IMG/VR virus record: IMGVR_UViG_3300025659_000002 | Span: 99,946-163,945 of that record | Length of the DNA stretch: 64,000 bases | Reading direction: 5' to 3' (one strand) | Origin: a virus | Part shown: one piece after another, positions 6,380 through 32,837 of the stretch | Layout: every line of letters begins with the position of its first letter | How positions within the stretch are numbered: position 1 is the stretch's first letter | Made by a program: the position numbers and the translations under genes | The notes under the pieces: model-generated | Database searches by the model: none | What the model saw: the letters and a program-made list of their open reading frames with translations, nothing else | Told to the model about the DNA's origin: nothing

Positions 6380-7175
6380 CCATAAAATACCTGAGTTTAT
6401 CAGCTCTCCAAGTTCGTCTTAATTTGTTGAGAGCTTGTTCTTTAATTTGACGAATACGTTCCCTAGTTAAGCCTAAATCAATACCAATATCTCTAAGAGT
6501 ATAAGGTCTAATATGCCCAATACCAAAATACATTTTCAATATTTGTTTTTCTCTAGCAGGAAAACTGCTTATAACGTCATCGAATTCCTCTCTGAATTCA
6601 TCAATAAGATGTTCTAATTCTACTGAAGAGGCTATTGCTGGAATTACGTTTGTAAGCGTATCGTCGTTATCTGTGTGGGGTTCGTCAAGATGAATAACTG
6701 TATAGCTATATTTTAAATCCTGTAAAGCGTTAGGATTATCGACTAATTCTGCTATTTCATCATAACTAGGAACACGCTGTAATTTCGTTTCAAGGTATTC
6801 TCTAGCTTTTGTTATCTTTGTAACATTTGTTATTTTGTTTAAAGGTAGACGAATCATTTTTGCATGCTCATGAATGGAAGCCATAATAGCTTGACGAATC
6901 CACCATACAGCGTAAGTAATAAATTTGAAATTACGAGAAGTATCAAATTTAGAAAAAGCTTTAACTAATCCTAAGTTTCCTTCTGCAATTAAGTCTTCTA
7001 AACTAATACCTTGATTCTGATATTCTTTTGCAACTTTTACAACAAATCTTAGATTTGAGGTTATTACTGTATCATAAGCTTTTCTATCACCAGCCTTTGC
7101 TAAGCGCAAGAGTTCTGCTTCTTCTCCCTTTAATAAGGGGTTGTGATTTTGGATTTCTTTTAAGTAACGTTTCAT
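6360..7175 (-). CDS. RNA polymerase sigma-70 family factor (early set)
   Basis: 271 aa with full sigma regions 2-4. Region 2 has NLRFVVKVAKEYQNQG and DLIAEGNLGL. The -10 recognition/melting segment is FKFITYAVWWIRQ (around residues 84-95). Region 3 follows RLPLNK, and the region 4 HTH is LGLTRERIRQIKEQALNKLRR. It lacks region 1.1. The wording closely resembles primary sigma factors of Bacteroidota, a weak clue to the host, from family knowledge. Both Trp in WW are TGG. Its ATG overlaps the TGA stop of the upstream phosphoesterase (ATGA). Confidence 0.9.
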   Translation of the reverse strand: MKRYLKEIQNHNPLLKGEEAELLRLAKAGDRKAYDTVITSNLRFVVKVAKEYQNQGISLEDLIAEGNLGLVKAFSKFDTSRNFKFITYAVWWIRQAIMASIHEHAKMIRLPLNKITNVTKITKAREYLETKLQRVPSYDEIAELVDNPNALQDLKYSYTVIHLDEPHTDNDDTLTNVIPAIASSVELEHLIDEFREEFDDVISSFPAREKQILKMYFGIGHIRPYTLRDIGIDLGLTRERIRQIKEQALNKLRRTWRADKLRYFMDDIHNY

Positions 7176-7882
7176 ATATCTAGTATCACATAAGACTGAT
7201 TATTTTTTGAAAAGTTCCCCACACCGTGTACCTTTGTAGTATTTATACTTCCTTCATATTTTTTATGATGGTGTGCGAAAACATAATGTTTTGGTTTTAA
7301 AACTTCGACTAATTGTCTTAAATGTTTACTACCTTCATCATGATTAGTTTTTTTAGAAAAAATTAAATCTGAAGCAGCTTGGTGAGTTACTAAGACGTCA
7401 ATAGAAGTATCGTCAGTGGTGGCTCGTATACTTAATTCCTTAATTTGTAAAGAAGTATAAAAGCGTTTATTTCGATCGACTAATTTTTTCTCCGGCCAGT
7501 GAAATTTAATAGGAGACCATATTCCTCCTAAAACACCAATCCGTACATCACAAATGGTATGAACTCTAGCTTGAGGTAAATAGTGTATATTTAGAGAGTC
7601 TAAATACCAATGAGTTAGATTATTAAAATCTTCATGGTTACCCATAATAAAATATATAGGTATATCAAATCTCTTTAAATTTTGAGCAGTTAAATCTTGT
7701 ATTATTTTTTTTACATTCCAAAAATTATGACGTACTTCTTTAGAACAGGCAGCCTCTTCCGATCGATATAACCCAAAATCTCCGCCCTGCACTATTGCAT
7801 CTACTTTATGTTTTTTTACAAAAGAATATACATTATCAATGTTAGAGTGTACATCTCCTATAAAAGCTATTCTTGCGGCCAT
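7172..7882 (-). CDS. Calcineurin-like metallophosphoesterase
   Basis: 236 aa with the metal-binding signature in order: GDVHS (residue 9 on), GGDFG, GNHED, THQ and a terminal HHH (FAHHHKK). These define the two-metal phosphoesterase fold; the substrate (protein, nucleotide or nucleic acid) cannot be read from sequence. It is the only gene in the window that appears to end in TGA (7172-7174), overlapping the sigma ATG. Reading that TGA as Trp would add only four residues before a TAA. Its start overlaps the preceding 95-aa gene by 16 bases. Confidence 0.85.
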   Translation of the reverse strand: MAARIAFIGDVHSNIDNVYSFVKKHKVDAIVQGGDFGLYRSEEAACSKEVRHNFWNVKKIIQDLTAQNLKRFDIPIYFIMGNHEDFNNLTHWYLDSLNIHYLPQARVHTICDVRIGVLGGIWSPIKFHWPEKKLVDRNKRFYTSLQIKELSIRATTDDTSIDVLVTHQAASDLIFSKKTNHDEGSKHLRQLVEVLKPKHYVFAHHHKKYEGSINTTKVHGVGNFSKNNQSYVILDI

Positions 7883-8154
7883 GGTTCACTATCTCCTTGA
7901 AAAATTACTGTTTGCCCTTTTAAACTTACTTCCACTGTTTGCCCATTTTTTAGGGCATTACATACCCAACATAGGGGAACTATACATTTCTTAGAGTTAT
8001 CCCAATTATGAAACACTCTATCATATTTTTCTTTTTCAATGTCTCCTATCTGGTTTTGGGTATTCCAAATTTCTCCCAAGTCTTTACTCTGCCTACGTTG
8101 CTGTCTAAGATGTTGATCGCCGTGCGGTGCGGTAGTGTTTATATTATGACTCAT
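7867..8154 (-). CDS. Unknown 95-aa Cys-containing protein next to E1
   Basis: 95 aa, coupled by a TAATG-type overlap to the E1-like gene. The N-half is polar (Gln/Arg/His-rich). The C-half has KCIVPLCWVCNAL, with three Cys that could bind a metal or form a reactive site, then two predicted strands (TVEVSLKGQTVIF). It has four TGG Trp codons. I do not recognise it. Its position suggests it belongs to the ubiquitin-like cassette, but it lacks the Gly-Gly tail and any clear E2 motif. Confidence 0.55.
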   Translation of the reverse strand: MSHNINTTAPHGDQHLRQQRRQSKDLGEIWNTQNQIGDIEKEKYDRVFHNWDNSKKCIVPLCWVCNALKNGQTVEVSLKGQTVIFQGDSEPWPQE

Positions 8155-8741
8155 TAGAATATATAAATAAACCTAGCAGAATTTACTACGTCACGGGTCC
8201 AATTTAAAATAAATTGAGCACCAATTTGACCAATAATTCTATTTCCACCTTGGACTATGCCTGCCTCTAATTCATAGGCTAATTGACAACTTCCATTTTC
8301 TACTTTTTCTGGCAAAGTTTTTAGCATATCATCTAATGTATTAGTTGGATGCTTAGTAAAAGCAGCTATGGAGCGGCCCTCACTTCTTAAATCTATCCAA
8401 TATACTTCTGGGTTTTTCTCTGCAAAGCGAAACAATAGTTCTCTAAAAGCAGTATTATCTACAGCGCTTACTATGCAATCGTATCCTGTTAGCTGTTCTT
8501 CTGTAAGTATGTTTTCAGTAATGGCTGAAAACCCGTATTTTACTTCAAGACATTCTGCTTTATTATCCATTATATCTTCAGTTTCATAAGTAGTATACGG
8601 TAAATTTTTACTTTCAACAGTATCTTCATCTGCAAAGTAAAATAAAGTCTTATGAAATTGATTGTGTTTATTATAGTGATCTATATCTGGGGCTATCCAA
8701 GAGCCTATCCCACCACCACCTACTATTAATATTTTTTTCAT
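8154..8741 (-). CDS. ThiF/E1-like adenylating enzyme
   Basis: 195 aa, short for the family. The Rossmann nucleotide loop is GGGGIGS (8-14). The ADEDTVESKNL segment (37-47) corresponds to the E1 D-x-D...N motif. K61 follows in DNKAE, and SAVDN (92-96) with R100 matches the conserved adenylation Asp-Asn and Arg. C152 (NGSC) is a candidate catalytic cysteine. The usual zinc CxxC pairs are absent. E1-like enzymes adenylate the C-terminal Gly of beta-grasp proteins for sulfur transfer or conjugation. It is start-stop coupled to the JAMM gene upstream, and a Gly-Gly-ending 76-aa protein lies two genes further up. Confidence 0.85.
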   Translation of the reverse strand: MKKILIVGGGGIGSWIAPDIDHYNKHNQFHKTLFYFADEDTVESKNLPYTTYETEDIMDNKAECLEVKYGFSAITENILTEEQLTGYDCIVSAVDNTAFRELLFRFAEKNPEVYWIDLRSEGRSIAAFTKHPTNTLDDMLKTLPEKVENGSCQLAYELEAGIVQGGNRIIGQIGAQFILNWTRDVVNSARFIYIF

Positions 8742-9175
8742 TAGTTTTGTATAATTATTTGTGCTTCGTTAAATTCTCTGATTACACCATCAAAATACCA
8801 AGCTGTCATACTCCTATACATGGGAGAGAAGATAATATATACTCCTTCATAACCTGCATAATTTAAATCAGTGGTAGAAGGTATTGGGTGGTGTCTTGGG
8901 TGTGTATGTGCTATACCTACAAGATCATAATCTGCATCATCATGCATATGAGTAGTTTTGCTCAACACATTGAATAAATCTTCAGGTTTTGGAGTATAAT
9001 ACACTTCGGCTTTAGAAGATATTTCTGTGTTTCGCATTCTCATATATTCCATACAATGCCAATAGGTATCGCTGGATTTACTACCCAAGAGAGCCCCACA
9101 GATTTCTACTGTGGGGTCCTCTAAGGCGTGATTGTAAATATCAGCAATAACACTAAAATTACAAACTAAAATCAT
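8741..9175 (-). CDS. JAMM/MPN family metalloprotease (deubiquitinase-like)
   Basis: 144 aa, a single JAB/MPN domain. The zinc site is intact: E24 (VEICGALLG) and H90-T-H92-x7-S100-x2-D103 (HTHPRHHPIPSTTD), the exact JAMM spacing. JAMM enzymes cut after Gly-Gly in ubiquitin-like proteins. In some phages a JAMM domain is instead fused to NlpC in tail assembly; no such fusion is present and it is not in the tail module. It overlaps both neighbours by one base, so it is probably co-translated with E1 and the HTH protein. Confidence 0.88.
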   Translation of the reverse strand: MILVCNFSVIADIYNHALEDPTVEICGALLGSKSSDTYWHCMEYMRMRNTEISSKAEVYYTPKPEDLFNVLSKTTHMHDDADYDLVGIAHTHPRHHPIPSTTDLNYAGYEGVYIIFSPMYRSMTAWYFDGVIREFNEAQIIIQN

Positions 9176-9954
9176 TATATGAACTCGATTAAGCAGCGTT
9201 TAGGAATTCTTGCTTTTTTACAAATCTGCTCTAGAGGAGCAGGAGCTTTTCCAAAACGTTTCCAAAAATTAGCCTTAATGAAATTATAATCTTTAAATGT
9301 AATCCAGTTTTTTCCTGGAGGGCCATATAAAGCCCATATTAAACCATTAGGCATATCTAGTTCTCTGGAAATTGTGTCAAGATTGAGGTTAACCCAATGC
9401 ATGGCATATATACCAGGGCTGCCAGTTCTTACAGGCACTGCTTTAGAGCTATCTGAAGGGCGATGACATGGGTGTATTCTGTCTAGAAGACCTCTACCTC
9501 TTACAATGTCGTTTGCAACCTTTGAAAATCTTCCTAGATATTTATTCATTTCAGTTCGAACAGTATTAGGAGTTATATTCAAATTCATATCTCTTAAATT
9601 TTGCATAATATGTTCAAAATGTACTCCGTTAGCGAACTGCTGGTGAACATAATCTTTTGCCCATAATTGGCCATTTACCGGAAGTCCCCAACGCTTGTGT
9701 TCTATCCATTGTATCCCTGCGGCTTTAAAAAGTCCTCGCAAAGTTTCTGAAGTAGTGTTTAACCTTTCGGCTAAATCAGATTGAGTAGTTCCTATCTGTA
9801 CAATAAAAGGAGCAGAACCCTCAGGAAATGAAGGTTCCGCTGCTTTAGTAAGTTCTAATCTTTTACCAGCTCGTCTTAAAGTTGGAATGAAATTATCAGC
9901 AGTAGTAATGTTTACTCCGCTACCTCGGCTTGTTGTCGTATTCTGTTTTCTCAT
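9175..9954 (-). CDS. Multi-HTH protein in the ubiquitin-like cassette
   Basis: 259 aa, basic. Several segments look like helix-turn-helix units: TTQSDLAERLNTTSETLRGL (about 57-76), NLDTISRELDMPNGLIWAL (about 190-210), and PLEQICKKARIPKRCLIEF at the end. Seven Trp are all TGG. It may bind DNA or be a regulator or substrate-recognition protein; I do not recognise the family. It starts 16 bases after the Gly-Gly protein and ends overlapping the JAMM start, so it is firmly inside the cassette. No E2-type HPN...C motif is evident. Confidence 0.6.
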   Translation of the reverse strand: MRKQNTTTSRGSGVNITTADNFIPTLRRAGKRLELTKAAEPSFPEGSAPFIVQIGTTQSDLAERLNTTSETLRGLFKAAGIQWIEHKRWGLPVNGQLWAKDYVHQQFANGVHFEHIMQNLRDMNLNITPNTVRTEMNKYLGRFSKVANDIVRGRGLLDRIHPCHRPSDSSKAVPVRTGSPGIYAMHWVNLNLDTISRELDMPNGLIWALYGPPGKNWITFKDYNFIKANFWKRFGKAPAPLEQICKKARIPKRCLIEFI

Positions 9955-9970
9955 TTGTCTTATTCCTAAG

Positions 9971-10201
9971 TTATCCGCCAGCTAAAGCGTTTGTTAGTAC
10001 AATATCAGTTCCGATTACATCTGCAACACTAAGCCCATTAGGACTACGAAATTGTTGATCGATAAATAACCATTTTGATTCATTGTTTGTTTTTTCTTTT
10101 ATCATGTCGATTGCGTCGAGAGGAGTCCCATACCAATCATCGTGACCACTTTCAGATATAATCTGTACGTGAACCTGAAGGTTGTCTTCTTTTTTATTCA
10201 T
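9971..10201 (-). CDS. Candidate ubiquitin-like protein ending in Gly-Gly
   Basis: 76 aa, the size of ubiquitin, ending TNALAGG. Predicted order is strand (LQVHVQIISE), turn, helix (PLDAIDMIKEKT), strand (KWLFIDQQF), then a C-terminal strand (TDIVLTNAL) and the exposed Gly-Gly. This is compatible with a beta-grasp fold. The same operon encodes an E1-like enzyme and a JAMM protease, the two enzymes that handle such tails. The fold is inferred, not proven by homology; the Gly-Gly end is seen directly. It would need no maturation because it already ends in GG. Confidence 0.68.
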   Translation of the reverse strand: MNKKEDNLQVHVQIISESGHDDWYGTPLDAIDMIKEKTNNESKWLFIDQQFRSPNGLSVADVIGTDIVLTNALAGG

Positions 10202-10217
10202 TATAATTTTGTGATTA

Positions 10218-12269
10218 TTATAGAGTTGTTATTTGCTGAGCGACAAGATTGTCGTTATGTAATGCAAATAGTCTATTTACTAATTTGTCTTTTCCTACTT
10301 GTGCTGTGGACTTATCCACAATACAAACATAATTTCCAGACGGGTATCTATATACCTGAGAACCGTCTGCACTAACTACATAAGTATCTAATTTACCTTT
10401 AACAAGATATCCGGTAATAGTTTTTCCGCTTATATTATAAGCATCGATTTTGATATTAAAACGTTTTTCTGTGTCAGCTAATAATTTTTTACTTTTTTCA
10501 ACTGCCTCATTAAATTCTCGTTTTGCACCATCCAGTAAGCCTTTTATATCAGAGCTACTTACATTTTGAACAATGGTACCATCTAAGAGAGCGCTAACAA
10601 TTTGTAGAACATTCACATAATTTTTAAATCTTATAAGTCTCTGAGTGTCAGATACTCTAAATTCTTGTTTATTTAAAACTAAATAGTTTATATTTTTTTG
10701 TCGTCTAATTGGAAATTTAAAGGAAAGCATGCCGCCATCTAAGGGGTCTTTTGCTTTTACATCAACACCATTTTGAAGATACCCATGTATTTCTAAAGAG
10801 CAGCTGCTAACTGAGTGTAAAAAATAATCATAGTCTTCTTGTGAAGTAAAGCAAAGCGCCCTCTGAAGGCATTCTGCAACTTCGCTAGCATTTACTCTAT
10901 GTTCATTTATATATAAACGTTTGCTTACTACCCCATTCGCATTAGTAGTGTATTGTGCGTCAAGATTAAAGGAAACTTCTCCAATTATACCAGAAGAAGC
11001 GTCTGACTGAGCTTCATCCTCTACGAATCTATCTAAAATTCTTTCAAAATTTAAATCTTGAATGTCGGACCAATACCATCTTAATTCACTTATTAAAGTT
11101 TTAGTCCAGCCTTCATTTGGCTTAAATATTCGTTGGTTTTCATAGGTTATTTCTGTAGAGGAAATTGTCATTCCGTTTAAAGAGATTGGTTTAGTATCTA
11201 ATTTATCTAAACGAGCAGTAAATTTTTTACTCAGATTGGTTTTAGCTACTTCTTCATTTTCTTCTCTTAATTTAAGTTTATCAGCTTTTTTTACAACTTG
11301 TTGTATGTCTCTACTTTCTAAAAGCATAGGAAGTTCCCCAGCTTTTGAAGCGGACGCCCACAAGCTTTTTAAAATTGTTTCAGTAGGGAGCACGGGGTGA
11401 TCATCAGTAAATACTAATGTTTGAACACGACCCGCAGCGTCTCCATCCCTAAACAATATTCTACCGATGTCCATGTAATTGTATAATTCGTGATCGGGAG
11501 TCAGCATACTTATATAAACTCTATTATTGTATTGATTCCAAGAATTATTATAACTATAAGAATTTTTATTACTTTGTTCTACTGTAAATACAACTCGTCT
11601 GTTAACGGATTCTAATACAGCGATAACTGCTGCAAATTTCTTTGAAGGGCTACCATTATAGAATAAATGTTCAGGATTTACTTCTTTTACAAAAGTAGAG
11701 GTTCCTTTGCTATTTAATTCTGATAGAAGCTTAGAGGCTCTTGGCCACAAGTCAACTATTGAATTATCGATTACTCCTAGTTCCATATAATTTCCAGAAA
11801 TCTCAGTATTTATAAAAATATGAGTATATAATTCTTCCCAGAGATTACTAATATTTTCAAAAACTATATCTGTAAAATTTACAGATAGGCTTCTGAAGAA
11901 ATTAGAAAGGGCCCCAAAAGAACGTACGGTAGTAAGATCTTCTGGAGCTATTTCTTTTATTTTAAAGTTATATACGACAAAAAAGTTTTTGTCATTATCT
12001 TCTATTTCTGCACCATAGGTTTCTAACGTAAAATTAAGGTCGTCAGAAGTTCGCGTTGAGTTGTTAAAGTTTCTACCTTCTAAATGACACATAGCTTTGC
12101 TAGTTGTCAATTGAAAGGTGATACCTGATAAGGTACCGCTGTGCATTTGAAACTCTTCACTATTAAACAAGGCGAAGGGTTTGGTACGTAATGTTTCCTG
12201 TTGTTCTTCACCAATTCCTAACTCATAAAGTGAGTTTAGAGCTGGTATTATTTTCAGTTTTACTTGCAT
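10218..12269 (-). CDS. Unknown 683-aa protein upstream of the Gly-Gly protein
   Basis: 683 aa, intact, with seven TGG Trp and no TGA. The N-terminal half is beta-rich (LKIIPALNSL, ITFQLTTSK). The C-terminal third has a charged helical stretch (LLDGAKREFNEAVEKSKKLL) followed by more strands. Cysteines are scattered without a metal-binding pattern. I recognise no family. It is five bases after the OB-like gene and 16 bases before the Gly-Gly protein, so it shares their operon. It could be a single-strand-nucleic-acid factor, a modification target or a partner; no evidence separates these. Confidence 0.6.
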   Translation of the reverse strand: MQVKLKIIPALNSLYELGIGEEQQETLRTKPFALFNSEEFQMHSGTLSGITFQLTTSKAMCHLEGRNFNNSTRTSDDLNFTLETYGAEIEDNDKNFFVVYNFKIKEIAPEDLTTVRSFGALSNFFRSLSVNFTDIVFENISNLWEELYTHIFINTEISGNYMELGVIDNSIVDLWPRASKLLSELNSKGTSTFVKEVNPEHLFYNGSPSKKFAAVIAVLESVNRRVVFTVEQSNKNSYSYNNSWNQYNNRVYISMLTPDHELYNYMDIGRILFRDGDAAGRVQTLVFTDDHPVLPTETILKSLWASASKAGELPMLLESRDIQQVVKKADKLKLREENEEVAKTNLSKKFTARLDKLDTKPISLNGMTISSTEITYENQRIFKPNEGWTKTLISELRWYWSDIQDLNFERILDRFVEDEAQSDASSGIIGEVSFNLDAQYTTNANGVVSKRLYINEHRVNASEVAECLQRALCFTSQEDYDYFLHSVSSCSLEIHGYLQNGVDVKAKDPLDGGMLSFKFPIRRQKNINYLVLNKQEFRVSDTQRLIRFKNYVNVLQIVSALLDGTIVQNVSSSDIKGLLDGAKREFNEAVEKSKKLLADTEKRFNIKIDAYNISGKTITGYLVKGKLDTYVVSADGSQVYRYPSGNYVCIVDKSTAQVGKDKLVNRLFALHNDNLVAQQITTL

Positions 12270-12274
12270 GTGTT

Positions 12275-12691
12275 TTAATCAAAAAGTCCGGTTTTTTCTG
12301 TTAATTCATTGGATTCGGAAGTACTCTCCTTCATGTCACATATAGTTAACACTAGGAAGTCTTTTGGGTCTGGATATAAATTTACTTCTTTACCTTGTAA
12401 GCCTTTCAGCGTACCGGCGTCGTAATAATCTAAAACTTTTGCTAAAGTGCTACCTGACGATAGCTCACCTTTCGAGTCGAGTGTAAACCATAATCCCTTT
12501 ATCCCTTGGGACTGTTTATGGTCTTCTACCCAACAATCAGATACTTGAAAAGTCCTACGACCATCATTAACTGAAAGTATAATTTTATCCGCAGTTTCCC
12601 CATCTCTGGTGGATACTGTTGTTTTTTTCACTTCTTCTACTGTTCCCTGTCGTAACTTGCTTCCGACTCCTAAATCTAAAAAGTCATTCAT
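12275..12691 (-). CDS. Small protein with SSB-like acidic GLFD tail
   Basis: 138 aa. The N-terminal part has alternating hydrophobic strands (SKLRQGTVEEVKKTTV, KIILSVNDGRRTFQVSD) compatible with an OB fold. A low-complexity Ser/Glu stretch follows, ending EKTGLFD. The DUF669 protein at 32894-33313 ends in the same four residues after an acidic run. In bacterial SSBs the acidic, hydrophobic-tipped C-terminus recruits partner enzymes, so a ssDNA-binding or partner-recruiting role is reasonable but inferred. It is the first gene after the RNR terminator and so probably opens a transcription unit. Confidence 0.55.
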   Translation of the reverse strand: MNDFLDLGVGSKLRQGTVEEVKKTTVSTRDGETADKIILSVNDGRRTFQVSDCWVEDHKQSQGIKGLWFTLDSKGELSSGSTLAKVLDYYDAGTLKGLQGKEVNLYPDPKDFLVLTICDMKESTSESNELTEKTGLFD

Positions 12692-16011: not shown

Positions 16012-16687
16012 TATGAGAACCGCCTAAATATTTAGAATATCCTATTTGTTCTTCTAACTTCCAATTTAAATTAGCAGTTATATACTCAATTATATGTTGA
16101 GGAATTTTTTTAAAGAATTCTTCTTTTAAATAAAAATCTTTTTTATTAAAAGTTTCAATACTTATAGCACTTTCTAAACAATATTTTTCTAAAATTATTG
16201 TAGAATCCCAAATAGCTAGATTGTATTTTATAGCTAAAAAATCTAATTCAATTTTTGGATTCTCCAACAACTCTTCATATTTTATAAATTCTATATTTTT
16301 TACCACTTTCCTTAATAATAAAAATAAAGCTATTTTTTCTTCTCTGCATTTAAAAATATTGTCAAATGTCTCTACTATCTTTTGTTCCGTAATTATATCA
16401 TAAGACCTAAAATCATTAGATAAAAAATCTTCCCAGCTAACCATAGCTAATTCAGGTAAATGGTGAGGGTGTTCAAACATACCTAATAGCCAGGAATAAG
16501 GATTCTTGTGTATTATTAAAAATAAAGTGTCTTCAGGAATTGGTATTAAAGAGTTATAATTTGGCAATCCATGTTTCCAGCCGTGATTAAAAACTATTTC
16601 AACCTCTCTGATATTATCACGTATAAGATACTCTAACCAGGTAGTTCCTGAATGCCTTTCCCCAAATAGCTGTATTTTAGAAATCAT
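16001..16687 (-). CDS. Sulfotransferase-like P-loop protein
   Basis: 228 aa. The N-terminal loop GERHSGTTWLEYLI matches the PAPS 5'-phosphosulfate loop of sulfotransferases. LIIHKNPYSWLLGM matches the 3'-phosphate site (normally R.P..S, here K.P..S). The rest is helical and Ile/Lys-rich. It would move sulfate from PAPS to a hydroxyl, most likely on a sugar given its neighbours. Replacement of Arg by Lys in the 3' site lowers certainty. It is the last gene of the glycan locus. Confidence 0.72.
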   Translation of the reverse strand: MISKIQLFGERHSGTTWLEYLIRDNIREVEIVFNHGWKHGLPNYNSLIPIPEDTLFLIIHKNPYSWLLGMFEHPHHLPELAMVSWEDFLSNDFRSYDIITEQKIVETFDNIFKCREEKIALFLLLRKVVKNIEFIKYEELLENPKIELDFLAIKYNLAIWDSTIILEKYCLESAISIETFNKKDFYLKEEFFKKIPQHIIEYITANLNWKLEEQIGYSKYLGGSHNES

Positions 16688-17511
16688 TAGGATTCAAATG
16701 GATTGCAACTAATCATTTCTTTAATTTGATCTTGTATAGAAGGTATTTCATCTATTATAGGTTTTTGAATATCTTTACTATTTACCAAAGATCTATCACA
16801 ACCTGGGGTTGCTTCAAAGAGATCCACTTTTATATCTAAGTTATACTCGGCGATTAGCAACGTTAGTAACTGGTATTTGGAAATGATTTCAGGAGAAAAT
16901 ATATGTCTAACTCCTTTCCAGTAAGTTTCCTTAACAATAATATCCCTAATAATTTTAGCTAGTTGCCAACAAGTAACTCCGTTCCAAAAATGATTTGTGT
17001 ATCCAAATACTTTAGAACCCTCTTGAGTTTTTAACCACTCTATTAGGGAACGTTGGTTTCCTTCTCGCTCTTCACCAATTAAAGAAGTTCTGATTACAGT
17101 AATATTTTCAGGCTCTCCTAAAGCCTTTGTTTTTCCATAATCATCGATAGCGTCTTTAACATCTACCTCTGAGTACTTACCTTTTTTTCCTGAAAATACG
17201 CCATCGGTAGTAATATGTATTACATTGACTTCAGTAGTTTCTGCTAAATCACTTAATAGATGTGGAAATATACTATTAACCTGTATAGTCTCATATAAGC
17301 CCCTAACTTGCATTCTTGGCCCAATGACCCCGGCACAGTTTATTATGACGTCCTCGGGGCCAATTTGCTCCAATTCTAGCCATTTAAGAACTGTAGCAGG
17401 CCTACATAAATCGAATTCTTCGGAACCCAAGGGTACTAGGCCTTTAATTCCTATTAACGCGGAGCTTACATAACGGCCTAACATGCCATTAGCTCCGAAT
17501 AGATACATCAT
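16687..17511 (-). CDS. RmlD-like NDP-sugar reductase
   Basis: 274 aa. It has an NAD(P) Rossmann loop GANGMLG (5-11), a TTDGVFSGKKGKY segment and catalytic YGKTK (YxxxK), typical of dTDP-4-dehydrorhamnose reductases and related WbjC/WlbI-like enzymes. With the adjacent CapD-like dehydratase it could take a 4-keto-6-deoxy sugar to a finished deoxysugar. The exact nucleotide sugar is not readable. No in-frame TGA; ends TAATG onto the sulfotransferase. Confidence 0.8.
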   Translation of the reverse strand: MMYLFGANGMLGRYVSSALIGIKGLVPLGSEEFDLCRPATVLKWLELEQIGPEDVIINCAGVIGPRMQVRGLYETIQVNSIFPHLLSDLAETTEVNVIHITTDGVFSGKKGKYSEVDVKDAIDDYGKTKALGEPENITVIRTSLIGEEREGNQRSLIEWLKTQEGSKVFGYTNHFWNGVTCWQLAKIIRDIIVKETYWKGVRHIFSPEIISKYQLLTLLIAEYNLDIKVDLFEATPGCDRSLVNSKDIQKPIIDEIPSIQDQIKEMISCNPFES

Positions 17512-18452
17512 TATATTGTCTCCTTTAAAATTGTTTCTAAGTCTTTTTTTGACACGGCAAAATCCTTACTGTTATATTCATTATTTTTTAATAAAACTTC
17601 ATCGTTATAAGTATTTTTATAATGCATTAAATAATATTTGCCAGGATCAGCCACTCTCCCTAATTCTTCTTTAGCAATCATAACCTCATGAATTTTTTCT
17701 GAAATACGAGGTTTTCCTATTTTGTATTTTAAACCAAAATTTTCTTTAAAATAATCAAACATATCCTTAACTAAAAAACTTTTTAATTTAGGAATAATAT
17801 TAAACCCAGTTAATGAAAAACCTATAGGACGGCTAAGCGCGTAATCTATTAAATTTACAGCTTCAGCTACTGAAATCATAAATCTAGTCATGTCCGCACT
17901 ATACAATGTAAGTGTATATTCGTTAGAAATGGCGTTCTTTATTAAAGGAATAAGACTTCCTGTAGAACCTAACACATTGCCATAGATGGCCGTGTTTAAA
18001 ACACAGTCTCCAAGAGAGTTTTCAGAATTTACTATGAACAATTCTCCTGCTACAAATTTCATAGAACCATATAAGGTGGTTGCTGCTCTACTTTTGTCTG
18101 TAGAAATAAAGCAAGAATCTATATGATTAGTTTCTGCAGCGGCTCTACTGTTAAGAGCTCCATTAATAATTGTTTTGACGGCTTCACTTGGATTTTGGTC
18201 AACGGCTTCTATTTGCTTCATACTAGCCGCAAAGATAGCTTTGGAATGACCCATAGAGGCTTCTATCAGCCTTTCCTTATCATTTACGTCACCTATGACA
18301 CATTTAATATTTGGGAATTGTTTTTTTAAATAATAGTGCTTTGCCTCATCACGGCTATATACGGTAATCCTATTAGTTCCATAATATTCTTTAACTAACG
18401 CAGTTCCTAAAAACCCCGCTCCTCCAGTAATAAAAATACGTTCATCAAACAT
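17511..18452 (-). CDS. CapD/PseB-like nucleotide-sugar 4,6-dehydratase
   Basis: 313 aa from ATG 18452, which overlaps the previous stop as TAATG. An upstream in-frame start at 18500 would run into the neighbour and is unlikely. Motifs are TGGAGFLG (Rossmann), CFISTDKSRA and LYGSMKFVAGE with YxxxK. This is the pattern of UDP-GlcNAc inverting 4,6-dehydratases. The product would be a 4-keto-6-deoxy-HexNAc for the reductase encoded next. Confidence 0.82.
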   Translation of the reverse strand: MFDERIFITGGAGFLGTALVKEYYGTNRITVYSRDEAKHYYLKKQFPNIKCVIGDVNDKERLIEASMGHSKAIFAASMKQIEAVDQNPSEAVKTIINGALNSRAAAETNHIDSCFISTDKSRAATTLYGSMKFVAGELFIVNSENSLGDCVLNTAIYGNVLGSTGSLIPLIKNAISNEYTLTLYSADMTRFMISVAEAVNLIDYALSRPIGFSLTGFNIIPKLKSFLVKDMFDYFKENFGLKYKIGKPRISEKIHEVMIAKEELGRVADPGKYYLMHYKNTYNDEVLLKNNEYNSKDFAVSKKDLETILKETI

Positions 18453-19636
18453 TAGGAAGACCTCTCTCGTATTGACAATCGAGGTAAAGGTTTTAACCAT
18501 TTACCTAAAAACCACGAGTTCTTATATACAATTTCATCTATAAAATTATAGGCAAGTACTAGAATATGATCTGGATTATACCCACGTAGAAAATCATTAT
18601 CTAAGATTGGTATATGAGTTCCAGGTGTGAGTTTATTTTGTCGTAATGGAGAGTCATCTATAATAAATGGAATCTCATCTTCTGTAATACCCATAGTGGA
18701 TAAGTATATATTAGCTTGACCACTAGCTCCATAAGCTACTATTGTTTCATTTTTCTCTTTAATATTATGCAATGTTTGCTTTATATCTGTTTTAAGATTT
18801 ACTAACTTCTTTTTAAAAACTTTAATTTTATACTCAGTCAAAGCTGGAGGAAAAAAGTAAAGGGGGGTTGCCGGCTTAGTTCTACTAAATATAGCATGTA
18901 AAGATGTTCCATGTATACTAATATACTCATAAGAGTCTAAGTATAATCCATGTTTATCCATTAGAGCAGTTAAAGACTCTATTGTATAATAAAATAAATG
19001 CTCATGATAGAAAAATGGAAAGCACATCTCATCTAGTAAATAATGAAAATCCTGCACTTCTATAATTAGTTTGCCGTCAGGACTTAATAAGGTATCTATA
19101 CCATCTATAACACTTTCCAAATCTTCCATATGGGCAAAATTGTTAGCGGAAAATATAACATCCATAAGCCCAAAATCATTTTTTATTTTAGTAGCTACTT
19201 CGTTATCAAAATAGTTATTAACTAGTGTAACTCCTTTAGGAACAGAGTCTAAAGCAACATTTGATGGGTCTACATTTATTACTAAATGATTCCCTAATTC
19301 CATTAGTCTTTCTCCTAGTGGGCAAGAGTTTCCTCCTATTTCTAATATACTAGAGGACGAAGCTAATTCGTTATGTAAACTTTCGGCTTCCGCATAAAAG
19401 TGATCTTTTAAAGTTTTAGTAGCGTGTGTATTATAAAAATAGTTATCGAATAGCTCATGTTTTGGTATCCTATCTTCTTTTAAAACTTGAGCTAATCCAC
19501 AATCTTTACAATATAAGATTCTAAGAGGTTTTAAAACGTCGTCTTTAATATCTTCTAAGAAATTGCCTGCTATAGGTGCATGATCCATAGAAAATATAAT
19601 ATCGATGTTAGTTGAGTTGCATATAGCGCATTTCAT
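18452..19636 (-). CDS. Sugar C-methyltransferase (zinc-binding, SAM-dependent)
   Basis: 394 aa. The N-terminal zinc knuckle is CAICNS...CKDCG (Methyltransf_13-like), then the SAM site SILEIGGNSCPLG, a FFYHEHLFYYT motif characteristic of TylC3/NovU-type 3-C-methyltransferases, and a C-terminal domain with AYGASGQANIYL (Methyltransf_14-like). These enzymes methylate a 4-keto-sugar carbon to make branched sugars. Substrate is inferred to come from the CapD or GMD branches. Starts two bases after the GMD stop. Confidence 0.85.
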   Translation of the reverse strand: MKCAICNSTNIDIIFSMDHAPIAGNFLEDIKDDVLKPLRILYCKDCGLAQVLKEDRIPKHELFDNYFYNTHATKTLKDHFYAEAESLHNELASSSSILEIGGNSCPLGERLMELGNHLVINVDPSNVALDSVPKGVTLVNNYFDNEVATKIKNDFGLMDVIFSANNFAHMEDLESVIDGIDTLLSPDGKLIIEVQDFHYLLDEMCFPFFYHEHLFYYTIESLTALMDKHGLYLDSYEYISIHGTSLHAIFSRTKPATPLYFFPPALTEYKIKVFKKKLVNLKTDIKQTLHNIKEKNETIVAYGASGQANIYLSTMGITEDEIPFIIDDSPLRQNKLTPGTHIPILDNDFLRGYNPDHILVLAYNFIDEIVYKNSWFLGKWLKPLPRLSIRERSS

Positions 19637-19638
19637 CT

Positions 19639-21773
<2,135 letters not shown>

Positions 21774-21789
21774 TAGTATTTATTGATTT

Positions 21790-22716
21790 TTATTTAAGCT
21801 GTTCATACACTTTCTTTATGCCCTCTTCCAGAGGTGTAAATTCGAATTCTGGAAATAAGGACATTAATTTAGAAGAGTCTATATCTTTTCTGTGCTGTCC
21901 ATTAGGCATTGAAGTATCATATCTAACTTCTAAATGTTCGGCATTAAGAGCTTTTAAAGCTATAACTACCATTTCATTTATACTTAAATTTTGATTTGGT
22001 GGGGCTATGTTTACATTTTCATATGTATCAGTATAGATCATTAGTTTTATAAGTCTTGCTAAATCTCCGGCATACATAAATTGTCTAAGAGGAGTACCAT
22101 CACCCATTAAGATTATAGTAGAATCTCCATTATCAAGAGCTTTCCTAATTTTAGTTAATAAAGCAGTTAAGAAATGACTTTTAGTTGGATCAGTTTTATC
22201 CCCATCTCCGTATAAATTACATGGAATAATATAATTATAATTAGTATTATATTGAGTATTATAGGCATCAATTTGTACCGCCATAGCTCTTTTAGCATAC
22301 GCGTAAGAGAAGTTAGTGGGTGTGGGAGGGCCATCATGTAGTTGTTCCTCAGCCATCGGATATACAGTAGCCTTGCCTGGAAAAATACAAGAACTTAGGA
22401 TTCCAACAAATCTTGGTGTTTTAGTTAGCATGGCATATCTAAGTAAATTAGTATTCATCAGAATATTGTCCGTATAGTATTCTGCAGGATGCTCAATGTT
22501 ATCTAAGATACCTCCAACTCTCGCGGCCAGGTGTATTATACATGCGGGTTTTAGATGATAAAACAACTTTCCTACATCATCTTCGCTTCGCAAGTCATAG
22601 TCATCGGACGACAGATACACAGCATTGGGCATAATTTCTTGCAAACAACTGCCCACTAGACCACTTCCACCGGTTACTACTGTTAGAGTTGACATATTAC
22701 TGTTAACCACACTCAT
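21790..22716 (-). CDS. colC: GDP-colitose synthase / GDP-fucose synthase family
   Basis: 308 aa SDR: VTGGSGLVG loop, HLAARVGGI, SSCIFPGK, FSYAYAKRAM (YxxxK), PCNLYGDGD, GDGTPLRQFMYAGDLA. These match the epimerase-reductase family containing Fcl and ColC. Because ColD precedes it, the likely substrate is GDP-4-keto-3,6-dideoxymannose, giving GDP-L-colitose. Fcl activity (GDP-fucose) remains possible, since the two differ little in sequence. A second start at 22695 is possible. Confidence 0.82.
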   Translation of the reverse strand: MSVVNSNMSTLTVVTGGSGLVGSCLQEIMPNAVYLSSDDYDLRSEDDVGKLFYHLKPACIIHLAARVGGILDNIEHPAEYYTDNILMNTNLLRYAMLTKTPRFVGILSSCIFPGKATVYPMAEEQLHDGPPTPTNFSYAYAKRAMAVQIDAYNTQYNTNYNYIIPCNLYGDGDKTDPTKSHFLTALLTKIRKALDNGDSTIILMGDGTPLRQFMYAGDLARLIKLMIYTDTYENVNIAPPNQNLSINEMVVIALKALNAEHLEVRYDTSMPNGQHRKDIDSSKLMSLFPEFEFTPLEEGIKKVYEQLK

Positions 22717-30294: not shown

Positions 30295-31230
30295 CTAAAT
30301 TAACTCCTCTAGAAAATTGTTAAACACTTGTTGCTGTTCTTCAAAATTTATAATTTCTCGTATTTTGACTGCAGCGTTATGTTGTAAATTATGTCTATAA
30401 GTTTCGTCAGTTAAGTATCTATCTAATTTAGATTTAAACTCAGCAGTAGACTCAAGAATAATACTTGTTTCATCAGTAATCCATCGTTCCATAGTCTTGC
30501 CCCTAACGAAGGGTTTAAAAGCTATTATAGGTCTTCCTGTAGCTAAACTTTGAATTGTAGCAAACCCATAACCCTCTTTTTCTTTAATATGCATAGTAGC
30601 TATTTCTTCCTTGAAACTGTCGTACAAGTTAGGGCCACTTATGTATCCATTAGGCTCCCCAACTCCATATCTTCTAAAATCTAAATTTGGAAATTGGGCC
30701 GTACATTGAGAATACAAAGCTAAAGAGTGTGCCCAAAATTCCCCATAACTATTAATATAGCTATTTAGAACAGTAAGGGATTCTTCTGGAGCTTCTTGGA
30801 ATACTTCATAGTCTACAGGGAGTAGTATATGTGAAGAATGCACACCTTGTAATTTTCCAACCTGATAGGCATGTAAATTAGCTGATAGTACGTTCTTAAA
30901 ATAATTAAAATTTATTACTCCAGTATGGTATTCATTTCCATAATAAGAGATGTATTTTACAGAGGAGCCTTTCTTATTTATAATATTATTAATAACATCA
31001 TTCTGCTGCTCAAAACAAGGGTTAATAACTGCGTCAATTATATCAGTATCTAAAAATTCTTGATAACTAATAGTAACTCTATTTTTAGTAGACGCAGTAT
31101 ATTTTAAACCGTATTTTATAACCGGTACCCAACTTTGATCTAAAAAATAAATATTATGATCAGTGTTTTTACTTAAAAGAAAAAATGCTTCATCTACATC
31201 TGGGTGCATGGAAGGTAGTAATATATTCAT
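30295..31230 (-). CDS. GT-B (GT4-like) glycosyltransferase
   Basis: 311 aa from ATG 31230, overlapping the upstream stop (TAATG); the longer start at 31251 is less likely. The C-terminal EKEGYGFATIQSLATGRPIIAF is the GT4 nucleotide-sugar motif (E-x7-E variant), with a preceding YSQCTAQFPNLDFRRYG. No TGA despite several Trp, unlike the next four genes in the operon. Confidence 0.78.
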   Translation of the reverse strand: MNILLPSMHPDVDEAFFLLSKNTDHNIYFLDQSWVPVIKYGLKYTASTKNRVTISYQEFLDTDIIDAVINPCFEQQNDVINNIINKKGSSVKYISYYGNEYHTGVINFNYFKNVLSANLHAYQVGKLQGVHSSHILLPVDYEVFQEAPEESLTVLNSYINSYGEFWAHSLALYSQCTAQFPNLDFRRYGVGEPNGYISGPNLYDSFKEEIATMHIKEKEGYGFATIQSLATGRPIIAFKPFVRGKTMERWITDETSIILESTAEFKSKLDRYLTDETYRHNLQHNAAVKIREIINFEEQQQVFNNFLEELI

Positions 31231-32837
31231 TAATTTAGTAATGAGTACCAAGAAGCTTTTATATTAGCTTTATCTACCTGTTGTTTTAAAATAGGAATAG
31301 CCTTCTGGGCTTCTTCTTTCCAATACCCATAATTCTTTTTTACTTCTTTTATTTGTGCAATTGCTTGACCCATGTCTGGATTATATTGCATACCTATAGA
31401 CCCTACGTCATCAGGCCTTCCTGAATAGTAAGCATCGCTAAAGTCACCACTTTCTACCCATAAAATTCCTGGAATATCTTTTAAATCTAAATGAGCAGTG
31501 TTTTTACTTAGTATCACAGGTATTCCTTGTAAAAGGGCTTGCCTAGGCGTAATACTATAACTCTCTCCAGCTGATAGAAATACATAGCAATTTAGTAATT
31601 CCCACCAGGATTGGTATTCTTCGTTATCTAATGTTTTATGTTGAAGAATAATATTATTGGGTTCTTGGGCAATGTGTTCCTTTAATTGGTTCATCATAAC
31701 TGGAGTATTTACAAATCTTCTGGAATGAAGTTTCAAATAGTCATTTTCAGTTTTACAAGCATTAAAAGCATCAATTATATTATCTACTTTTTTCCTATCC
31801 CAAAACCCACCTGAATACCCATATACAAATTTATTGGGTTCTGGATTATTAATAAAGTTTGGAAAGGAAGCTATATGTTCTACTTTATATATTTCAGTTT
31901 CTGGGTATTCTTCTTTTAAACAGTCAGTTAGCCATGAATTTGTAACTACGATATTATCAAAAGTAGGTATTATATCTTTTAAAGTAGAAACTCCAGTGTT
32001 TTCCCACATTAAATACCAGTAAGTATTTGCGTCGTAAGTGTTTTTAATCCAGGAAGTTAAATTATTATTATATTCAATAATATTAGATTCCAGGTCAATT
32101 CCTGATACGTGTACAAATTTACAATTTTTGTAATCAAGTGGCTGTCTAATATGAGCATTTTCATATTTTTTATATAATTTAAGCCATTTAAAATCTTGTT
32201 CATGTTTTTTTAAAGTAGTAGGCATAAAATTAGTTAAAGTGCTTAAAAATATAAAATTTCTATGTAAGCGATCTAGTGGTCGATTGAAAGAAATATGTTT
32301 AAAATCTTTAAATACATGTTTATATAGATTACATAGGTGTGCCCCCAATCCATCTTCTTTGTAATGAAATCCGTGAAGAATAACTGATTTATCAACCTCT
32401 CCTGTAGGTTCTAATTCTTCACAACTAATAGTTCCCAAATAAGCATCTATGTCGAAGACTTTCTTTTTAATGATTAGATTGGTTATATCTAATTTTTCAA
32501 AAGTAGATTTGTTGCCCGACACAGCCGCCATGAGCCCTGAAGGTTTTTTTAAATCATTAGGGTTGGACGGACTAATTGTACATTGTATAGGACCGGTGAA
32601 GTTAGTGCCTTGGTAAAAATTAGTTACTACGTTACAGGTATGTTTATTATTATTTGCTTTTATTATAGTTTTACATTGCAGAGAATTAACTAAAAGATTT
32701 TCCCATAAAAAATTTAAGTATACTTCAATATCTACAGTAGTATTATACTCAATTTCTATAGAATAAATACTACCGGCTTTAAAATCTTTTACGTTTTTTA
32801 ACCACCAAGTTTTATAAGTTCCTAAATCTTGTATCAT
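31230..32837 (-). CDS. Two-domain GT4-like glycosyltransferase
   Basis: 535 aa. The first 150 residues are a beta-rich domain of unknown role (GSIYSIEIEYNTTVDIEVYL). The remainder is GT-B: YGYSGGFWDRKKVDNIIDAF opening the nucleotide domain and SAGESYSITPRQALLQGIPVI as the donor motif. About 14 Trp, all TGG. It is the first gene of the glycan operon after a hairpin, so the promoter is probably just upstream. Confidence 0.78.
   Translation of the reverse strand: MIQDLGTYKTWWLKNVKDFKAGSIYSIEIEYNTTVDIEVYLNFLWENLLVNSLQCKTIIKANNNKHTCNVVTNFYQGTNFTGPIQCTISPSNPNDLKKPSGLMAAVSGNKSTFEKLDITNLIIKKKVFDIDAYLGTISCEELEPTGEVDKSVILHGFHYKEDGLGAHLCNLYKHVFKDFKHISFNRPLDRLHRNFIFLSTLTNFMPTTLKKHEQDFKWLKLYKKYENAHIRQPLDYKNCKFVHVSGIDLESNIIEYNNNLTSWIKNTYDANTYWYLMWENTGVSTLKDIIPTFDNIVVTNSWLTDCLKEEYPETEIYKVEHIASFPNFINNPEPNKFVYGYSGGFWDRKKVDNIIDAFNACKTENDYLKLHSRRFVNTPVMMNQLKEHIAQEPNNIILQHKTLDNEEYQSWWELLNCYVFLSAGESYSITPRQALLQGIPVILSKNTAHLDLKDIPGILWVESGDFSDAYYSGRPDDVGSIGMQYNPDMGQAIAQIKEVKKNYGYWKEEAQKAIPILKQQVDKANIKASWYSLLN

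Follow-up and report, generated by a model that had tools for sequence, protein, structure and literature searches.

Among the operon types described by Iyer, Burroughs and Aravind (2006), types 6d and 6e combine a JAB protein, an E1 enzyme and a small ubiquitin-like protein (Ubl) with a C-terminal Gly, type 6e being further marked by 1-3 tandem Ubl repeats and a Zn-finger-like protein (PMC1779556). Viruses of eukaryotes often hijack ubiquitin; it would be unusual for a bacterial virus to keep its own modifier, activator and deconjugase together as a conserved part of its replication module. Here we describe a gene cassette carried by the window, a 64,000-nucleotide stretch forming the right-hand 64 kb (positions 99,946 to 163,945) of the 163,945-base virus record IMGVR_UViG_3300025659_000002. 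The cassette encodes a predicted Ubl, a JAMM metalloprotease, an E1-like enzyme and a constant 683-amino acid (aa) protein, and it is probably a small virus-encoded system for Ubl conjugation and deconjugation. Its gene content and order, its invariant catalytic residues, the predicted beta-grasp fold of its Ubl and, in archaea, a Ubl-E1 fusion and tandem Ubls were all established by computation.

On the minus strand of the window, the genes for the 76-aa Ubl (9971..10201), the 144-aa JAMM/MPN metalloprotease (8741..9175) and the 195-aa minimal E1/ThiF-like adenylyltransferase (8154..8741) are found together with a helix-turn-helix (HTH)-like gene and a 95-aa gene, all at the coordinates given in the initial annotation of this stretch. 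The one-base overlaps reported there are present as well, TAATG joining the HTH-like and JAMM genes, the JAMM and E1 genes, and the E1 and 95-aa genes. Ubl, E1 and JAMM keep together as one conserved set in 16 viral lineages, with invariant key residues. The make-up of the cassette needed revision in two respects: a constant member, the 683-aa gene (10218..12269, minus strand), had been overlooked, and the HTH gene proved to be a variable insert.

Relatives of the cassette were gathered by iterated searches of viral contigs. These contigs carry 16 distinct E1 sequences within the order ~140-aa gene, ~700-aa gene, Ubl, optional insert, JAMM and E1, often followed by a small Cys/His protein; a contig of 205,518 bases encodes an E1 whose protein sequence is 100% identical to that of the window. 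The ratio of nonsynonymous to synonymous substitution rates (dN/dS) was 0.06-0.17 in every comparison with unsaturated dS, and 0.07-0.13 for the Ubl; the cassette genes are under purifying selection. Recurrence in 16 lineages, low dN/dS and the invariance of the Gly-Gly end, the JAMM residues and the E1 Cys indicate that the cassette is more than a chance assembly. Among the phage isolates of INPHARED, no match was obtained with the window E1, the window Ubl or the L023 homologue of the 683-aa protein, and the E1 of L023 retrieved from the same collection only distant ThiF proteins, within PRTRC-type contexts in phages ME3 and KLEB27-3.

Pfam contained no match to the Ubl family, and a sequence search of PDB with the Ubl returned nothing useful. 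AlphaFold2, supplied with a 17-sequence alignment, produced a model of the Ubl (pLDDT 83.5) consisting of a beta-hairpin, a helix, a strand, a short strand, a short helix and a final strand. Foldseek comparison of this model with PDB gave top matches mostly from the ubiquitin family with probabilities of 0.94-1.0, including a trypanosome ubiquitin-like protein, NEDD8, ubiquitin, FAT10, SUMO and an archaeal Ubl. A beta-grasp fold, which the initial annotation had expected and named beforehand as the point at which its prediction could fail, is thus well supported by modelling, if not proven. The C-terminal Gly-Gly, which closes the sequence NALAGG in the window, is kept in 17/17 aligned Ubls, and two of these bear short tails after it (GGNAN in L043, GGNV in L045), which implies processing. 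Near its C-terminus, the window Ubl contains neither Lys nor Arg.

The JAMM protein shows the exact HxHx7Sx2D spacing first reported for it, in the motif HTHPRHHPIPSTTD, and matches Prok-JAB at 2.2e-17; residues E24, H90, H92, S100 and D103 are invariant in 16/16 JAMM sequences. Its best NCBIfam match is desampylase (60.9 bits, against a cut-off of 130) and its solved relatives include archaeal JAMM1 and BRCC36, so that we presume it to be a deconjugase, a precursor processor or both. The E1-like protein scores above the cut-off against ThiF (7.6e-9) and has the features of the E1/ThiF superfamily, namely the Rossmann GxGGxG ATP loop, the catalytic Lys and Asp and the ThiF profile; K61, D95 and Cys152 (GSCQ) are invariant in the aligned cassette E1s. 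The nearest curated models in NCBIfam are ThiF and PRTRC_ThiF. MccB also figures among the distant matches, as would be expected if the E1 adenylated the Ubl for peptide-nucleotide or small-molecule ligation without any protein conjugation. A deconjugating JAMM and the poly-Ubl relatives described below are unexpected for such a pathway, which we consider extremely improbable.

The ~700-aa gene is as constant as the Ubl gene, which it directly precedes in all 16 lineages. In the 683-aa protein of the window, the N-terminal half is divergent and conservation is concentrated in the C-terminal third, these proteins ending in the motif G-x-Y-[IV]-C-I-V-D-K...G-x-D-K-[LIV]-[VI]-N-R with an invariant Cys649. 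The AlphaFold2 model (pLDDT 76, pTM 0.46) shows a C-terminal domain made of four strands, a loop with Cys649 and then two helices. A G-x-I-C motif recalls E2 enzymes, as does the predicted order of strand, Cys loop and helix, and we put forward E2-likeness of this domain as a hypothesis. Comparison of the 683-aa protein with PDB by sequence and by fold gave no match to E2 and no confident fold match; whole-model fold matches were of low probability only and were treated as meaningless. A weak match to DUF7737 (E=1.1e-4, below the cut-off) suggests that the C-terminal domain is distantly related to that family. The 683-aa protein is the best candidate for a transfer (E2-like) factor or for a privileged substrate, and the idea that it is an unrecognised transfer enzyme is open to test.

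Among cellular genomes, assemblies of Poseidoniales, a group of marine archaea, also encode E1 relatives, which show a similar motif, W-[IL]-D-L-R. The E1 tree places the cassette phages in a single clade that joins L045 and L046, and the archaeal sequences in another clade of the same larger group. A TFB-like gene is present in the L045 record (93 kb) and a gene for a GroEL-type chaperonin in L046; such gene content resembles that of published magroviruses, and the two may derive from magrovirus-like archaeal viruses. A Ubl-profile search of archaeal genomes recovered proteins in which two or three Ubl domains follow one another in tandem, and a profile built from phage Ubls alone still retrieves the archaeal Ubls at 2e-8 to 1e-2. 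Most of the tandem Ubls of L092, L095, L100, L101 and L103, all from Poseidoniales, end in Gly-Gly plus one to four extra residues. Some of the repeats (L095) are nearly identical to one another, as in eukaryotic polyubiquitin genes. At L086:9446-10726, two Ubl domains are naturally fused to an E1 and followed by a gene with a JAMM motif, and such a gene adjoins the E1 in about 20/22 archaeal E1 loci. Among 145 Thermoplasmatota genomes, the Ubl occurs in 17, the E1 in 20 and both in 16 (Fisher p=1e-16, a value confounded by phylogeny).

Relatives of the 683-aa C-terminal domain were also sought. Profile alignment with a 417-aa protein of L045 was weak (P=0.013-0.022). Strong scores obtained with a C-terminal-domain profile that included L045 and L099 were set aside as circular; with a non-circular phage profile, L046 ranked first, L099 second and L045 fourth of 4059 open reading frames, with E-values of 0.1-0.9. 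Taken as a whole, these comparisons of sequence are no more than suggestive of homology between the phage domain and the L045, L046 and L099 proteins. Ahead of the Ubl, L099 encodes a protein with an ICI...GD..V domain at its end; an E1 lies on the same strand. A 232-aa archaeal protein between the Ubl and the E1 (L099:613-1308) has a second motif, AICIHD...GD, possibly belonging to another copy of the Cys domain. That a protein with a similar C-terminal domain precedes an archaeal Ubl, and that the viral gene is constant and always directly before the Ubl, would also suit a dedicated partnership, in which the Ubl would be no general tag but would go mainly onto the 683-aa protein, so as to switch that protein or bring about its assembly. 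Adjacency suits a transfer enzyme equally, however, and the conjugate is hypothetical; we regard this arrangement as unlikely.

In the conjugation system that we favour, the E1-like enzyme would use ATP to adenylate the C-terminal Gly of the 76-aa Ubl and would then carry the Ubl, probably as a thioester on Cys152, before it is joined to amino groups of protein targets. Transfer could be direct and E2-independent, as in archaeal sampylation, or could pass through the Cys-bearing C-terminal domain of the 683-aa protein; in that case, the variable N-terminal part of this protein would either select the target or itself be the target. The JAMM protein would take the tag off again and trim Ubl precursors with residues past the Gly-Gly.

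The same parts could serve a sulfur carrier, in which the E1 would make a C-terminal thiocarboxylate on the Ubl, sulfur would pass to a nucleoside, a cofactor or a small molecule, and the JAMM would merely expose the Gly-Gly. The profile matches of the E1 are to ThiF/MoeB-type enzymes, SAMP1 is weakly matched by the archaeal poly-Ubls, and SAMP proteins serve in two roles. In addition, E1, Ubl and JAMM are also found together in sulfur-transfer clusters (PMC1779556), and sulfur could be supplied by host enzymes. Searches of five viral records found no rhodanese, no cysteine desulfurase and no confident TtuA/TilS-type ATPase, the ATP_bind_3 match being sub-threshold and the sole Aminotran_5 match being a DegT-type sugar aminotransferase; the cassette also has no biosynthetic acceptor gene. 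Tandem Ubl repeats fit a modifier better than a carrier and, together with the tails after Gly-Gly, imply proteolytic release of the modifier. Because such release is implied and no sulfur-transfer partner was found, we prefer conjugation to sulfur transfer. Of the two functions between which the initial annotation had not chosen, protein conjugation is accordingly favoured, and a sulfur carrier appears distinctly unlikely given the missing partner and the polyubiquitin-like archaeal repeats.

Several observations weigh against conjugation as the function of the cassette. There is no recognisable E2 or E3 in it: the Pfam E2 families gave no match among the cassette proteins (UQ_con was not searched genome-wide), and a search of the window's own virus record for Prok-E2_B gave no match, though its positive control also gave none. 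The Foldseek TM-scores of the Ubl are only 0.4-0.5 and no E-value falls below 1e-3. Where most ThiF/MoeB enzymes have the Arg of the NLxRQ motif, the cassette E1s have an invariant Tyr, so that E1 activity is assumed and the profile match is the basis for placing the enzyme in the superfamily. Some archaeal repeats (L094) end in QAG and not in Gly-Gly, the co-occurrence of archaeal Ubl and E1 is subject to the phylogenetic confounding mentioned above, and the 16 cassette lineages make up one kin group and do not count as independent acquisitions.

These points notwithstanding, a broader proposal may be considered, according to which large bacteriophages, magrovirus-like viruses and Poseidoniales have in common an unrecognised class of Ubl conjugation. 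A DUF7737-related Cys domain, at the C-terminus of the 683-aa protein, would replace the E2, the archaea would store the modifier as a polyubiquitin-like gene and the viruses would use a streamlined copy with a single Ubl to modify replication proteins in the course of infection. We hold this proposal to be possible, though doubtful. The link to the tandem polyubiquitin-like genes of Poseidoniales provides in any case a new branch for the study of the origins of ubiquitin systems.

The surroundings of the cassette contain a gene for DNA polymerase I (DNA polymerase A) and, judging by sequence, genes for a sigma factor, a ribonucleotide reductase and a dUTPase, all of which make up a module for replication and nucleotide metabolism. 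The presence of a sigma factor suggests that the host is a bacterium. Since this module is common to the lineages, they are best seen as one virus group related by descent, not as 16 independent acquisitions. The position of the cassette within it suggests that it serves genome replication or the early takeover of the host, and a viral unit of this kind points to protein tagging in one of these processes. Another use for the cassette would be counter-defence, in which it disturbs Ubl-based immunity of the host (Bil, CBASS type II), for instance by removing host tags with the JAMM or by offering the Ubl as a decoy. Bil and CBASS type II are built on E1, E2 and JAB (PMC11354881, PMC10097602), and a phage could gain from the same parts. 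Stripping tags needs no complete set of Ubl and E1, however, and throughout the virus group the cassette stays together within the replication module; moreover, padloc gave weak matches only and, in the E1 tree, the closest cellular relatives are the archaeal set and not a bacterial defence system. Counter-defence is therefore quite improbable.

Some members of the module appear to carry insertions. The ribonucleotide reductase homologue at L003:1692-4673 has 993 aa, compared with 662 aa in the window, and contains an internal insertion that looks like an intein. At L023:13934-15698 the DNA polymerase A frame stops early, with an HNH-like open reading frame of 167 aa after it, which suggests a homing-endonuclease insertion. 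Elsewhere in the window (16687-22716 and 31230-32837) lie sugar-nucleotide genes (GDP-mannose dehydratase-like, RmlD-like, epimerase and DegT aminotransferase) and a glycosyltransferase gene; the match of the frame at 19924-20445 to GDP-mannose dehydratase is partial, and this frame is possibly truncated.

The remaining genes of the cassette, all on the minus strand, are more variable. A 138-aa conserved gene lies upstream (12275..12691) and has a homologue in the same place in 15/16 cassette lineages; this ~140-aa gene was undetected in L036/L037. The 259-aa protein P0004 (9175..9954) is a putative HTH DNA-binding protein, encoded as an accessory insert between Ubl and JAMM. Its HTH label, taken from the initial annotation, has a weak Pfam match (E=0.083) and is backed by a similar gene in the same slot of L029; the slot holds other proteins in L031-L033 and none in L003/L012/L022/L023. 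The 95-aa protein (7867..8154), a frequent companion after the E1, has a conserved FHNWDN..C..C..C pattern, possibly a metal site, and relatives in L003, L012, L029, L030, L034, L035, L043 and L044; it was undetected in the other cassette lineages. A gene for a calcineurin-like metallophosphoesterase (7172-7882) overlaps the 95-aa gene, and a metallophosphoesterase also follows the E1 in L022 and lies near ThiF in phage ME3. Searches of Pfam, PHROGs, NCBIfam and padloc assigned no confident family to the Ubl, 259-aa or 95-aa proteins, Rfam gave no match, and promoter-like sites occur at chance frequency.

A limited search of the published literature found no account of this cassette and no ubiquitin terms in the magrovirus papers it returned, in agreement with the earlier remark that this exact gene order is not known from any described system. 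By analogy, the cassette would work like a minimal sampylation or Ubl pathway. It resembles sampylation (SAMP/UbaA/JAMM1) in having an E1, a Ubl ending in Gly-Gly and a JAMM, here with desampylase as best match, and no recognised E2. It differs in being a virus operon with a 683-aa partner and in scores far below the family cut-offs, and the curated SAMP model does not match the phage Ubl. With BilABCD and CBASS type II (Cap2/Cap3) it has in common E1 and JAB parts and a setting between phage and bacteria, but it is borne by a virus and not by a host, and it has no recognised BilB-type E2, two-domain E1, E1-E2 fusion or CD-NTase. In particular, CBASS type II is defined by a Cap2 E1-E2 fusion and a CD-NTase, whereas the E1 here is a stand-alone protein of 195 aa and the cassette has no CD-NTase. 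The lambda-type TAPI/TAPK tail assembly proteins also bring Ubl and JAB domains into phages; no E1 is involved there, and the cassette sits in a replication module and not among tail genes.

PRTRC-type sets likewise combine a small Ubl, a JAB/JAMM protein and a stand-alone ThiF/E1 on mobile elements (plasmids and some large phages), and they are also present in the jumbo-phage isolates Bacillus phage KLEB27-3 and Acinetobacter phage ME3. In KLEB27-3, which has PRTRC-type JAB, ThiF and Prok-E2_D-like genes, gp199 (L090:718-1425) consists of four tandem, near-identical PRTRC-C-like domains. PRTRC_ThiF is the best model for the E1 relatives of archaea (7.8e-16) and of L045 (3.2e-12); the cassette E1 matches it at 4.1e-6 with 26.3 bits, against a cut-off of 144.75. 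Prok-E2_D, the PRTRC B-like protein, had no match in five cassette-type viral records, the KLEB27-3 positive control giving a sub-threshold match. With its E1 so far under that cut-off and the E2-like B protein not found, the cassette falls outside PRTRC; its Ubl, of another family, has a Gly-Gly end, and the 683-aa protein stands in place of the B-like protein. From operon types 6d and 6e it differs in that its E1 is unfused to the JAB protein, its Ubl has no Pfam match and its gene partners are others. The PRTRC-type sets of Ubl, JAB and E1, together with the operon types of Iyer et al. (2006), are nevertheless the closest known kind, Bil and CBASS being more distant.

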